Shown piece after piece: positions 20,133 to 24,794 of a stretch of 24,794 nucleotides of DNA (position 1 is its first letter; each line of letters opens with the position of its first letter). The stretch comes from a virus. The notes beneath the pieces are model-generated. The model saw nothing but the letters and a program-made list of their open reading frames with translations. It did not search any database and was not told where the DNA came from. Both the position numbers and the translations under genes were made by a program. Location: IMG/VR virus record IMGVR_UViG_3300012954_000071, positions 1 through 24,794 of that record; one strand, written 5' to 3'.

Positions 20133-20140
20133 TATTTATA
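20133..20140 (-). promoter_or_regulatory. Late promoter for the gp48-gp53-hub-baseplate operon
   Basis: The minus strand reads an exact TATAAATA here, followed by AGAC. The predicted start is near 20127, giving a leader of about 34 nt that contains the GAGGG ribosome binding site of gp48. Its first base (20140) is also the A of the gp4 start codon. This is the only clear promoter ahead of the whole minus-strand cassette. Confidence 0.75.
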
Positions 20141-20586
20141 TGGTTTATGCTAAAGAAATATATAAAGGAAAGTTTATTCCTAAAAATCCTACGAAGTATC
20201 TTGGCGACTTCAACTCTATAATCTATAGATCAAGTTATGAATTGAAGTTTATGAACTGGTGTGATCGTAGTAATTCTATTGTAGGCTGGGTATCTGAGGA
20301 AATAGCAATACCCTATCGTAACCCTTTAGATAATAAAGTACACAGATATATGGTTGATTTCTATATAGAAGTACAAGAAGAAAAGAGTATAAAGAAGTAT
20401 TTAATAGAGGTAAAACCAGAAAGATTTACAAAAGCACCACCTCCTGGCAAAAGAAAAACTAAAAGATACTTACAAGAGATAGCGCAATACGGAGTTAACG
20501 AGGCCAAATGGAAATCTGCAAAGGATTTTTGTAAAGCGCAAGGCATGGAATTTAAGATAGTTACTGAAAAAGAACTAGGTATCTAG
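20140..20586 (+). CDS. 4: Head completion protein gp4 (nuclease fold, 148 aa)
   Basis: gp4 (also called 50/65 in T4) acts after DNA packaging to prepare the filled head for tail joining. Length matches T4 gp4 (150 aa). The run IPKNPTKYLGDFNSIIYRSS, then EEIAIPYRNPLDNKVHRYMV and NEAKWKSAKDFCKAQGMEFK, aligns with T4 gp4. The TnsA-like endonuclease residues are present: Glu34, Asp73 (MVDFYIE) and Glu90-Val-Lys92 (LIEVKP), so the PD-(D/E)XK core looks intact. It opens the plus-strand operon, divergent from gp48/gp53 just as genes 4 and 53 diverge in T4. No ribosome binding site is visible before ATG 20140. Its stop TAG directly abuts the next late-promoter box. Confidence 0.92.
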   Translation: MVYAKEIYKGKFIPKNPTKYLGDFNSIIYRSSYELKFMNWCDRSNSIVGWVSEEIAIPYRNPLDNKVHRYMVDFYIEVQEEKSIKKYLIEVKPERFTKAPPPGKRKTKRYLQEIAQYGVNEAKWKSAKDFCKAQGMEFKIVTEKELGI

Positions 20587-20599: not shown

Positions 20600-21217
20600 A
20601 TGGCTACACCATTTAGAGATATTGCTAACGCAGCGGGCAACAGACACCAGGACAAATCAGTTCAATGGTATGTTCGTGCTGTTAGAAACTATGCTAGAGG
20701 TATTAATACATTTCAAGAAGCAAGACAATCTGACTTAGGTAAAGAAGCAACACAATTAGAAGTAGGTAAAATGTACTTATTTTCTTATGATCCTAAAACA
20801 AAAGCAGATTTGCCTTACTATGATACTGTACCTTTAGTTGTAATTACAGAACCTTCACCTGGTGGTTTCAGTGGTATTAACTTACATTATTTAGCCCCAA
20901 CATTTAGAGCCAATTTATTGGATAAAATAATGCCAACAGACAGGAGTGCACTTACAGATAAAAGTGTATTAAGAGCTACATGGAGTTTTTTAAAAAACTT
21001 TTCTAGATTTCCAGAAGCAAGAGGATCTGTTAAAAAATATTTAACTCCTCATATAACAGGAAAGATGATAGAAGTAGATCCTGAAAATTGGAAAGCAGCT
21101 ATATTTTTGCCGGTACAAAGTTTTGTAGGAGCATCAGATAGAACTGTATATAGAAATACAATGGATAAACCAGACAGAAAAAGAAGAATGTCAATTAGTA
21201 CATCAGGAACACGATAA
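20600..21217 (+). CDS. Conserved T4-like phage protein after gp4 (205 aa), unassigned
   Basis: The N-terminus (MATPFRDIANAAGNRHQD) is followed by a central block (GKMYLFSYDPKTKADLPYYD, then GFSGINLHYLAPTFRANLLD). I recognise that block as conserved among T4-like phages, but I cannot name a demonstrated function. The C-terminus is basic (DRKRRMSISTSGTR). In T4 the gene after 4 on this strand is 2, the DNA-end protector, so a gp2-slot protein or a tail/head completion factor are possible; this is positional inference only. There is no Shine-Dalgarno; a late promoter lies 5 nt upstream. The stop overlaps the next start by one base (TAATG at 21217). Confidence 0.75.
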   Translation: MATPFRDIANAAGNRHQDKSVQWYVRAVRNYARGINTFQEARQSDLGKEATQLEVGKMYLFSYDPKTKADLPYYDTVPLVVITEPSPGGFSGINLHYLAPTFRANLLDKIMPTDRSALTDKSVLRATWSFLKNFSRFPEARGSVKKYLTPHITGKMIEVDPENWKAAIFLPVQSFVGASDRTVYRNTMDKPDRKRRMSISTSGTR

Positions 21218-22233
21218 TGCCATCAAGTCAAAAATTAACAAATTATTTAGAAGATATTAAAAAGCGTACCTTTGCCAGAGCAGATAGGTTTGAAGTAACA
21301 TTTAATATAGGAAATCTAGGAAAAGCAATGTCTGCTAAGATTGCACCAATGGGTGGTAGTACTGAACAAACAATTCAATTATATTGTGAAGAAGTACAGA
21401 TCCCTGGTATGATATTAAGTAATAAAGAATTTAATATAGGTGCATGGACATTTTATAGAAATACAAAAGTAGGATTTTTAGGAAACGAAATAAACTTTAC
21501 ATTCCTTACAACAAACGACTGGGAGTTAAGAGGATTTTTTGAACAATGGATGAAACTTTGTGTAGATACTAACGGCCAAGAAATAGGATATCCTGAACAT
21601 GTAATGTGTACAATAGATATTAAAGCATTAGATGTACAGGACAATGTTACAAAGGGCTGGAGATTATATGAGGCTATGCCTAAAGTTCTTAACCTTGTTC
21701 CTTTATCTAGTAGTACTACAGCACCTGTGAGAAATACACTAATTGTCTCATCTGCATATTGGGAATCTACTGATTCAGAAAGAAGTAATGGACTGTCTAC
21801 ATTCCAACCACAACAAACTTCTCAATCCAATATTGCTGGAGATTATGATGATGTCTCAGGTGATAGAGATGGAACAAATGTTGGAGGAAAAATTCAAAAA
21901 TTATCAGACTTACCTTTACAACACCCAGGTGAAGCGTATAAGGTACCAGAAGAAAAATTAACTTCTAAATTAGAGCTAAAACATGACTCATCCAATAACA
22001 CTATTTCTACCGAACATGGTAAAGCAGTGGTTAGTGGTGGTGTAAATAGTTTAGCATTACAACACGACGACAATATGCTTGCTAGTGGGCCTATGCAACC
22101 TAGTAAGTCTAGAGGAGGACTAAGTATAGAATCCGATCATGGTAAAAAGGTACAATCAGACGGATTACATACTTTAGAAGAAAGATCAGAAAGAGGAAGA
22201 GGCAAAGGCCTATTCTCTTTCTTTGGTTTATAA
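21217..22233 (+). CDS. Tail-tube-fold protein, gp54/gp19-like, with duplicated C-terminal motif (338 aa)
   Basis: Residues about 18-190 fit the gp19-like tail-tube fold: ADRFEVTFNI, then CEEVQIPGMI, then INFTFLTTNDWELRGFFEQW, then a final TLIVSSAYWES strand, in the same order as T4 gp19. Total length is nearer T4 gp54 (320 aa), the baseplate tail-tube initiator, which is the better guess because gp48 is encoded nearby and the major tube is normally about 160-200 aa. The C-terminal 140 residues are polar and flexible and contain two similar motifs, STEHGKAVVSGGVNSL (about 264-279) and ESDHGKKVQSDGLHTL (about 304-319), ending in KGLFSFFGL. It overlaps the 205-aa gene by one base and precedes gp26 by 22 nt. 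Confidence 0.72.
   Translation: MPSSQKLTNYLEDIKKRTFARADRFEVTFNIGNLGKAMSAKIAPMGGSTEQTIQLYCEEVQIPGMILSNKEFNIGAWTFYRNTKVGFLGNEINFTFLTTNDWELRGFFEQWMKLCVDTNGQEIGYPEHVMCTIDIKALDVQDNVTKGWRLYEAMPKVLNLVPLSSSTTAPVRNTLIVSSAYWESTDSERSNGLSTFQPQQTSQSNIAGDYDDVSGDRDGTNVGGKIQKLSDLPLQHPGEAYKVPEEKLTSKLELKHDSSNNTISTEHGKAVVSGGVNSLALQHDDNMLASGPMQPSKSRGGLSIESDHGKKVQSDGLHTLEERSERGRGKGLFSFFGL
22000..22180 (+). repeat. Duplicated HGK-type motif in the tail of the tube-fold protein
   Basis: Two protein-level repeats of about 20 residues, with the shared pattern E(H/D)HGKxVxSxGxxxL, are encoded near 22000-22060 and 22123-22180. DNA similarity is limited to short stretches such as CATGGTAAA, so the duplication is old or under protein-level selection. 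Confidence 0.5.
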
Positions 22234-22255: not shown

Positions 22256-22942
22256 ATGTTACCTAAAGTAGATGCGCCAATATATGAAACTACTTTTATG
22301 AACGGAGAAACAGTTAAGTATAGACCGTTTCTAGTTAAAGAAGAAAAGATTCTAATGTTGGCAAGTGAAGGTGATGACTACAATGAGATGTTACAGGCAT
22401 GTGCTCAGGTAGTAGATAATTGTACATTTGGAAAACTAGATGTAGAAGGACTACCATTGTTTGCACTGCAAGACTTGTTCGTTAAAATCAGAATGGTTTC
22501 TGTTGGAGAAGAACAAGAGTTTAATCTTACTTGTGGAAATTGCGAGGGAACGATTAAATACAATCTTAACTTAGAAGATATGAAAGTTAAAGGTTTAGGA
22601 GATCTTCCAAATGGAGAAATAAAAGTTAATGATGATTTTATTATTAACATGAAATTTCCTAGTGCATTGAAAGTTGCACTAGATGATGAACAAACAGATG
22701 TAGATATTATTAAACATTGTATTAATTCAATTGTTACAGAAGAAGAGGAACAGTTGATTAAAGATGTTAAACAGGAAGAACTTATAGAATTTGTAGAGAA
22801 TCTTCCTATAGATGTTTTTGATGAGATGAGAAAGTTTATACAGGCAATGCCAGTATTACAACATAGTATAGATTACAAGTGTCCACATTGTGATGAGGAC
22901 CAAGTAGTTAATATTAATGGATACGAACATTTTTTCGCCTAA
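22256..22942 (+). CDS. 26: Baseplate hub assembly protein gp26 (228 aa)
   Basis: gp26 belongs to the T4 group of hub assembly factors and is similar in size to T4 gp26 (208 aa). The N-terminal segment YRPFLVKEEKILMLASEGDD is the family hallmark. Two CxxC pairs, Cys93/Cys96 (LTCGNCEG) and Cys209/Cys212 (KCPHCDED), are placed like a zinc ribbon split by about 110 residues. The zero-frame product ends in GYEHFFA at TAA 22940-22942. Just before the stop lies a T_TTT_TTC slippery heptamer, and the -1 frame continues as an open frame for 66 codons. This gene therefore probably also makes a longer product, like the lambda G gene. It lies immediately upstream of the presumed tape measure. Confidence 0.87.
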   Translation: MLPKVDAPIYETTFMNGETVKYRPFLVKEEKILMLASEGDDYNEMLQACAQVVDNCTFGKLDVEGLPLFALQDLFVKIRMVSVGEEQEFNLTCGNCEGTIKYNLNLEDMKVKGLGDLPNGEIKVNDDFIINMKFPSALKVALDDEQTDVDIIKHCINSIVTEEEEQLIKDVKQEELIEFVENLPIDVFDEMRKFIQAMPVLQHSIDYKCPHCDEDQVVNINGYEHFFA

Positions 22943-23136
22943 GCCTTTCTCAGGAGAGTCTTGATAATTATTACAGGACCAATTTTTTGTTAATGCAAGA
23001 ACATCATTATAGTTTAACAGAGTTAGAAAATATGATGCCCTGGGAAAGGGAAGTTTATGTAGGTATGTTAATTGTTCATCTTAAAAACAAAGCTGAAAAA
23101 GCTAAAGAGAAGGCAGGAAAACAAACTTGGAGCTAG
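22256..23136 (+). CDS. Predicted gp26 frameshift fusion with the gp51-slot ORF (293 aa)
   Basis: Reading gp26 to Phe227 and shifting -1 at 22930-22936 gives 66 further residues: FFRLSLSQESLDNYYRTN, then LLMQEHHYSLTELENMMPWE, then a Lys/Ala-rich helix ending KQTWS. The whole extension is open and looks like real protein, including the 57 bases before its first ATG (22993). The ELENMMPWEREVYV pattern resembles tail-assembly chaperone extensions that precede tape-measure genes in other long-tailed phages. T4 has gene 51 at this place after 26. The fusion would be a chaperone-like form of gp26 acting on the next gene product. The alternative is independent translation from ATG 22993 (47 aa), but its only AGGA is about 14 nt upstream. 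Confidence 0.65.
22930..22936 (+). promoter_or_regulatory. Candidate -1 programmed frameshift site (T TTT TTC)
   Basis: In the gp26 frame the codons read CAT TTT TTC GCC TAA, so the heptamer T_TTT_TTC has the canonical X_XXY_YYZ form with zero-frame codons TTT and TTC. A -1 slip bypasses the stop at 22940 and enters a frame open to 23136. An AGGAG sequence lies downstream at 22952-22956. I could not see a strong hairpin directly after the site. Confidence 0.7.
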
Positions 23137-23142
23137 AAAAAA

Positions 23143-24794
23143 ATGCCAATGGATGAAAAACATTTAAAGAAACTCATAGATGAGGTAAAAGCCGTCGGCG
23201 ATAAAGGCGAGGACATGGCTACCTCTCAAGAACTTAGAAATCTTGAAGATGCCATTAAAGCAGAAACAGAAGAACTAAAAGCAGATTCTGCTTACAATAA
23301 AAAAATAAATGATAAAAACGAAAAACTTAATTTAGCCCAAGCAGCGTTTGCTGGTATTGTTCGAATGAGGGACAAGAGAGCCCAGGACAACCAACAGAAA
23401 AGTTTGGACCAACAAGCTGCCGAACAATTAAAAAGAGATCAAGGCGGTAAAGCAGTTCGTACAATAATATTAGAACAGAACAAATTAACTTTAGAATCTC
23501 TAAATAGAATAGAAAATATATTAGGTAAAGGTGGAGGTGGTACCGGCGGTGGAGGTACTGGCGGAGGCGGTGGCCCAAGTCAAGTAGATAAAGACATAGC
23601 TCAGGCAGCAAAGAATGCTAAAGAGGCCTCAATCAAAGAAAAAGCAGACAAAACAACCATAGGCCAAGGCGGAGGAAAGGCAGGATCAGGAAGAAAATTA
23701 GATACTGAAGAAAAGCGTCGTGGTTATGGTATGTCAGACGCCGACTACGCAGCACAATATGATAGAGATCAAGCAGCTTTAAAAAGAGAAAGTCGTGTAA
23801 GAGATGTAGGCGCTCTTTCTAACCAAGTAACAACAACAGGAAAAAGTTTAAATAAAAGAAAAATATCAGCCGATGAGTTTGGTTCAGAAGGCGGACTTGG
23901 TTTTGAAGAAGATCAAGTCTTAAGAGTTGGTGGTAAAAATGTTATAAGAGCTGGAAAGTATGAAACAACAGGTACTGCTAAATTTAAAGATGCCGATACA
24001 AACAAATTTACAGCCACAGACCCTATTAAAGCACTAGCAGAAGATGTTAGAATATCACAAGGTGTTATAGGCACAACAAGAAATAGACGACAATATCAGG
24101 GATCTCAAGCAGCTGCTGTATTAAACAAAAACATAGGAGCTAATGCAAGTGAGGTACAAAAAGCATTAGACAGCAATGAAGCAGCAAGAGCAGATCTAAC
24201 CGATGTAGTTTCTGCTATAAAAACCTTACAACAAAATACAGATCCTAGTAAACAAAATGAAATGTCTGCACTCGTACAGACTAAAATAGAAAAATTAAAA
24301 ACATCTGGTGGTGAAGATTTAGCTAAAAACTTAGGCCTTCAAGAGGTACAAGACACTGCTAAAAACAAAGGTTTAGGAAATAAAGCAAGTAGTCTGTTTA
24401 AATCTTTTTCTGGAATCAACCAAGGAGCAGTATTAGATCCTGGATTGGGTGATAGAAAATTTGTTAAAGGCGAAGGAAAGATAGCAGGGTTCTTTAATAA
24501 AACACTTAATCAAGGCGTAAGAGCTACAGGTGCAGCAAAAGGCGCGTTAAGTCAAGCATTTACAATGGACCGTATATTTGGTGCAGCAGGAACAGGAAAA
24601 TTATCTAATGTAGGTGCATTACAAGGCACAAACCAATTCAAAGAAAATGCTCAAAGAGAATTGGAAATGCAAAGTCAAGTAGAAGCACAAAGTAGAATGA
24701 TGAGTGTTGACGAAGGTTTAGGTATTATAACAGACAAACAAGGTAAACCAACAACACGAGATGCGGAAGGAAAAACAATTGATCCTGTAACAGG
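23143..24794 (+). CDS. Probable tail tape-measure/hub protein in the gp29 position (partial, at least 550 aa)
   Basis: An open frame from ATG 23143 runs off the right edge after 550 codons. GGAG at 23129-23132, 10 nt upstream, supports this start over the ATG at 23149. Residues 1-125 are charged and helical (MDEKHLKKLIDEVKAVGDKG, then repeated Lys/Glu/Gln-rich runs). Residues 130-144 are a Gly/Thr linker. The remainder is Ala/Lys/Gln/Gly-rich with long helical segments, as is usual for tape measures. The position directly after the gp26/gp51-slot chaperone pair is that of the tape measure in lambda-like phages and, with 27-28 relocated, of gp29 in T4. No enzymatic motif is seen in the visible part. 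The assignment is by composition and context, not by a recognised domain. Confidence 0.6.
   Translation, partial: MPMDEKHLKKLIDEVKAVGDKGEDMATSQELRNLEDAIKAETEELKADSAYNKKINDKNEKLNLAQAAFAGIVRMRDKRAQDNQQKSLDQQAAEQLKRDQGGKAVRTIILEQNKLTLESLNRIENILGKGGGGTGGGGTGGGGGPSQVDKDIAQAAKNAKEASIKEKADKTTIGQGGGKAGSGRKLDTEEKRRGYGMSDADYAAQYDRDQAALKRESRVRDVGALSNQVTTTGKSLNKRKISADEFGSEGGLGFEEDQVLRVGGKNVIRAGKYETTGTAKFKDADTNKFTATDPIKALAEDVRISQGVIGTTRNRRQYQGSQAAAVLNKNIGANASEVQKALDSNEAARADLTDVVSAIKTLQQNTDPSKQNEMSALVQTKIEKLKTSGGEDLAKNLGLQEVQDTAKNKGLGNKASSLFKSFSGINQGAVLDPGLGDRKFVKGEGKIAGFFNKTLNQGVRATGAAKGALSQAFTMDRIFGAAGTGKLSNVGALQGTNQFKENAQRELEMQSQVEAQSRMMSVDEGLGIITDKQGKPTTRDAEGKTIDPVT
23530..23574 (+). repeat. Gly-rich linker codons in the tape-measure candidate
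   Basis: Fifteen consecutive codons encode 13 Gly and 2 Thr in the pattern GGGGTGGGGTGGGGG. The stretch is GC-rich inside AT-rich coding DNA and separates the helical N-terminus from the rest of the protein. Confidence 0.8.

Follow-up and report, generated by a model that had tools for sequence, protein, structure and literature searches.

The window analysed here comprises positions 1 to 24,794 of IMG/VR virus record IMGVR_UViG_3300012954_000071 (24,794 nt) and comes from an uncultured marine T4-like myovirus. It contains a gp26-like ORF (Table 1) that matches PF12322 (T4_baseplate, 2e-57) in a profile search and phrog_150 (baseplate hub, 2.3e-57) over profile positions 7–232 of 282. The genes preceding it are conserved neighbours, and in Pelagibacter phage Mosig gp2-like and tail-tube-initiator-like genes occupy the same place. 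The ORF that follows the gp26 region runs off the window, and its counterpart in a 98% relative (L002) has a length of 932 aa or more. It has no family match in profile searches, and its position and composition suggest that it is probably the tape measure protein. Caulobacter phage Cr30 has a gene annotated as tail tape measure protein in the corresponding position, with one small ORF in between.

Table 1. Features of the gp26 region and its surroundings in the window
Feature	Coordinates	Strand	Basis or remark
Head closure protein (gp4-like), conserved neighbour	20140..20586	+	phrog_218, 4.9e-56
DNA end protector (gp2-like), conserved neighbour	20600..21217	+	phrog_429, 3.2e-47
Tail tube / baseplate tail-tube initiator-like gene, conserved neighbour	21217..22233	+	phrog_45 tail tube, 1.5e-22
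gp26-like ORF, 228 aa	22256..22942	+	predicted short form of tail assembly chaperone (TAC-N)
Slippery heptamer T_TTT_TTC, gp26 frame	22930..22936	+	read directly; TTTTTTN kept in relatives
-1 frame extension, C-terminal gp51-like domain	22933..23136	+	phrog_634, phrog_150, pN/pS, T4 gp51 alignment
Possible downstream hairpin	22940..22963	+	predicted fold, 4 + 5 bp, one mismatch, 3 nt past the heptamer
ORF cut off by the window's end, probably the tape measure gene	23143..24794	+	position and composition

The codons of the gp26 frame at 22928–22942 are CAT TTT TTC GCC TAA, so that the heptamer T_TTT_TTC, which the initial annotation had placed near the end of this gene, is indeed present and in frame, with one sense codon between it and the gp26 stop. 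The claims that the -1 frame is open as far as 23136 and that a joined product would have 293 aa also agree with the sequence: the frame runs from the heptamer to a TAG at 23134–23136 (translation FRLSLSQESLDNYYRTNFLLMQEHHYSLTELENMMPWEREVYVGMLIVHLKNKAEKAKEKAGKQTWS), decoding past the slip would resume at CGC (22936–22938), and the residues of gp26 as far as Phe227 and the 66 codons after them add up to 293 aa. From its first residue on, the extension matches phrog_634 ('baseplate hub assembly catalyst', 1.7e-25), and it also matches phrog_150 at profile positions 232–276 (2.6e-5). Since gp26 ends at phrog_150 position 232 and the extension continues from 232 to 276, a single profile spans the change of frame. 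The C-terminal end of T4 gp51 can likewise be aligned to the extension. PF12322 and phrog_150 place gp26 in the family of T4-like tail assembly chaperones (gp26/gp51), and in the predicted long form a C-terminal gp51-like domain is joined to the gp26 part.

A single-protein scan of IMG/VR gave only two near-identical relatives, and alignments were therefore used to find others. Relatives were collected by gp26 alone, leaving the slip site unused, and reference phages were then added, giving 143 distinct loci, with the gp26 stop readable in 141. An in-frame TTTTTTN lies near that stop, mostly one codon ahead of it, in 140 of the 141 (TTTTTTC in 130, TTTTTTT in 8, TTTTTTG and TTTTTTA in 1 each), although the loci are phylogenetically related and such counts are not independent; only an Ackermannviridae phage departs from this. 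All 140 loci with the heptamer have an open -1 frame, complete extensions having 56–69 codons (five of the 140 end at contig ends). A comparison of gp26-gp51 junctions across T4-like phages, proposed in the initial annotation, thus came out in favour of the site. Heptamer and open frame are kept in Kyanoviridae, Schizotequatrovirus, Emmerichvirinae, Emdodecavirus, Pootjesviridae and Otagovirus, as well as in phage Cr30 and Stenotrophomonas phage DLP6.

The residue before the two phenylalanines varies (S, N, D, H, G or A) and its codon may be AGT, TCT, AAT, GAT, CAT, GGT or GCT, but the final T of that codon is invariant in the 140 loci. The first Phe codon at the site is always TTT, while elsewhere in these genes TTT and TTC occur 1129 and 452 times. 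In the first codons past the slip the -1 frame has a pN/pS of 0.43 over all non-redundant loci, and of 0.49 in the 20 loci whose first 14 codons are free of ATG, GTG and TTG; the other two frames there give 1.0–1.1 and 1.6–1.9 (all values are pooled pairwise ratios, not tree-corrected). The impression that the stretch before the first ATG is coding is therefore borne out by a substitution test. These results leave almost no room for a chance origin, in which a conserved FF pair and AT-rich codon usage would produce the heptamer by themselves and the downstream ORF would be unrelated. Third codon positions in these genes are rich in T, and 71% of the Phe codons are TTT, but among 108 control FF dipeptides taken from other places in the genes only 3 carry T_TTT, against all 140 at the site. 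On this control and on the constraint in the -1 frame, such an origin was rejected.

It is also very unlikely that the small gp51-like ORF yields a protein of its own, apart from gp26, by translational coupling at a start codon just past the gp26 stop. Many relatives do offer a start, with an ATG at codon 4 (61/140) or 7 (34/140) of the extension, counted from 0; some Straboviridae and Ackermannviridae have an overlapping TAATG, and GenBank annotators usually list two genes. In the window, however, the earliest start codons come 18–20 codons into the extension (first TTG at 22987, first ATG at 22993, with no ATG before codon 21), and the 20 divergent loci that are start-less over their first 14 codons are still constrained as protein there. 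Nor does restarting explain an invariant T_TTT behind variable preceding codons, or the fused gp51 of T4. Many GenBank phage records carry no annotation for the extension (as in those of loci L176 and L177) or list it as a gene in its own right, 'baseplate hub assembly catalyst'; a joined gp26-gp51 CDS was seen in none of the GenBank records opened.

In many relatives, sequences on either side of the heptamer resemble stimulators of ribosomal frameshifting. Just upstream, a match of at least four bases to AGGAGG is found in 67% of 117 non-redundant loci versus 12% of background windows; its usual form is GAGG at -14. The Glu codon at this place is GAG in 67 of 94 cases, compared with 849 of 2875 elsewhere (Fisher p 3e-16, relatedness ignored). 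Viewed across the relatives, positions -15 to -11 before the heptamer carry a Shine-Dalgarno-like GAGG or GGAG at a fixed distance. The window itself lacks the GAGG element and has AAT GGA at that place. Downstream, the 33 nt past the site fold better than synonymous randomisations in the relatives as a group (mean z -1.44 ± 0.17), in contrast to a control region 60 nt further on (z -0.04 ± 0.09). RNAalifold found no consensus structure for 60 gapless sequences, and per-sequence and synonymous-randomised tests were used in its place for that reason. In the S-SM2-like clade a stem pairs +10–14 with +19–23 (76–96% paired, several compensating pair types); support for this stem comes mainly from that clade and not from the window's own, and the hairpin predicted in the window does not stand out from shuffled sequences (z -0.10 over 60 nt).

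The same elements bear on transcriptional slippage, in which RNA polymerase rather than the ribosome would shift on the six-T run. A homopolymer run is present, and one inserted U would yield the same -1 frame. Six-base runs are, however, short for RNA polymerase slippage; the run is broken by a C at position 7 in 130 of the 140 loci, and a GAGG at a fixed -14 together with a hairpin is typical of ribosomal sites. Slippage of the polymerase thus appears highly improbable, and -1 frameshifting by the ribosome at the end of gp26 is, on sequence evidence, by far the most probable reading.

Under ribosomal frameshifting, most ribosomes would stop at 22940 and release the 228-aa short form. In a minority, the tRNA-Phe molecules in the P and A sites on T_TTT_TTC would slip back by one base to TTT TTT, and these ribosomes would read past the stop to give the 293-aa long form with its added, helical gp51-like domain. 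By analogy with gpG and gpGT of lambda, the short form would form a coat on the tape measure protein, probably the product of the neighbouring gene, the added domain would recruit tail tube subunits, and both forms would leave the finished tail. We infer the tail-chaperone function from position, T4 homologues and the literature; the slippage itself, its rate and the binding partners are likewise what we infer. Taken as a whole, we are confident that the locus encodes a tail assembly chaperone of the lambda G/GT kind, made via -1 ribosomal frameshifting. Like gpG/gpGT, it would have a short and a -1 frameshifted long form, with the shift occurring late in the first ORF and upstream of a (here probable) tape measure gene. 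It differs from gpG/gpGT in protein family, in its heptamer and in having no detectable similarity to a solved structure.

The AlphaFold2 model of gp26 is of high confidence (mean pLDDT 92.6), as is a model of a T4-type gp51 (pLDDT 90.7), whose C-terminus adds helices. A fold search of the PDB (E<=0.001) gave no match for either model, tail chaperones included, and a sequence search against solved structures gave none. In a search of BFVD the named top matches were gp26-like proteins. Matches of gp51 to entries from the Spackle paper were rejected, these being gp5 residue-range constructs. The likeness to lambda G and HK97 gp13 would accordingly be one of the way of working, common descent being unsupported by the fold and sequence searches.

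T4 itself has the same parts in a different arrangement. Its genes 26 and 51 are divergent, and both products belong to PF12322 and phrog_150; gp26 stops at phrog_150 position 235, while gp51 reaches 280 and also matches phrog_634. T4 gp51 is thus an in-frame fusion of both parts and corresponds to the long form, and T4 gp26 to the short form. The label 'gp51-slot' given to the extension in the initial annotation holds in part: here only the C-terminal domain is present, whereas T4 gp51 is the whole long form built from the same parts. The slip site is kept in neither T4 gene, gp51 lying in a single reading frame. The arrangement recurs in all 38 T4-type IMG/VR loci, where the genes for the long and the short form lie divergently on opposite strands; among those of the 38 that were listed, none has a slip site. 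At one of the 38 (L215) the gp51 ORF is split in two pieces, by a sequencing error or in reality. In RB43 (L170, 2001–3294) the gp51-like and gp26-like genes follow each other on a single strand, whereas those of T4 are divergent. In a tree with several long branches, T4-type gp26 and gp51 group together against all frameshift types (99/99), and gp51 forms a single clade (100/99). Because the T4-type paralogues form one clade, frameshifting would have been traded for duplication there, or the reverse if the root lies elsewhere. It would be a natural example of gene duplication taking the place of a recoding site.

The Ackermannviridae show another junction. In these phages (ACKERMANNVIRIDAE) the -1 extension is kept, and the junction reads [AG]TT TTC ATY TRA, in which no heptamer would let both tRNAs re-pair. 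The gp51-like extension in the -1 frame is conserved in the Ackermannviridae loci L174, L218–L231 and L235–L238. Some members have an ATG overlapping the stop (TAATG), and most of 21 IMG/VR loci have ATT. A tentative reading, which we hold to be somewhat less than even in probability, is that the T4-like superfamily has three routes to the two chaperone forms: the T_TTT_TTN site, used in many lineages with GAGG and hairpin; duplication, in the T4 clade; and a non-canonical RTT TTC ATY TRA in the Ackermannviridae, mostly with no start nearby. Were this so, what is new in it would be the stimulators and the variant of the Ackermannviridae.

A 2016 review describes the G-T frameshift as conserved 'except T4' (PMC5009743). 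According to the account in PMC10885494 of Vladimirov, Gautam & Davidson 2022 (Virology 566:9-15), some T4-like phages have a short gene and a longer fusion gene and use no frameshifting; the same study is credited with finding, in some T4-like phages, a slippery poly-T stretch close to where the short gene ends (via PMC10885494, PMC12846349). As described there, those chaperones belong to the same gene family and place as the window's gp26, the window adding an uncultured marine member whose gp26 is 35–40% identical to its best cultured matches. A further parallel is the tail assembly chaperone of the Vandenendeviridae phage Adele, with a -1 frameshift at the poly-T motif GTTTTT (PMC12846349). 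As in the window, its -1 frame is open in all genomes and needs no start of its own; the motif and the phage family differ, and the likeness is one of description (PMC12846349). The frameshift site is therefore real and strongly conserved, and both this kind of site and its two-gene substitute have been described from 2022 on. The earlier proposal that gp26 and gp51 are a lambda G/GT-like pair is well supported, though a site of this kind is not new for T4-like phages. The comparison sets gp26/gp51 as the chaperone pair of T4-like phages, in agreement with the 2022 study as cited.

The frameshift site is present in most of the related marine phages, whose GenBank entries break up what is very probably a single protein into 'gp26' and 'gp51'; the comparison supplies a clear rule by which hundreds of phage genomes could be re-annotated. 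In the record of Acinetobacter phage Stupor (L169), the depositors named gp26, gp51 and gp28 'tape measure protein assembly chaperone'.
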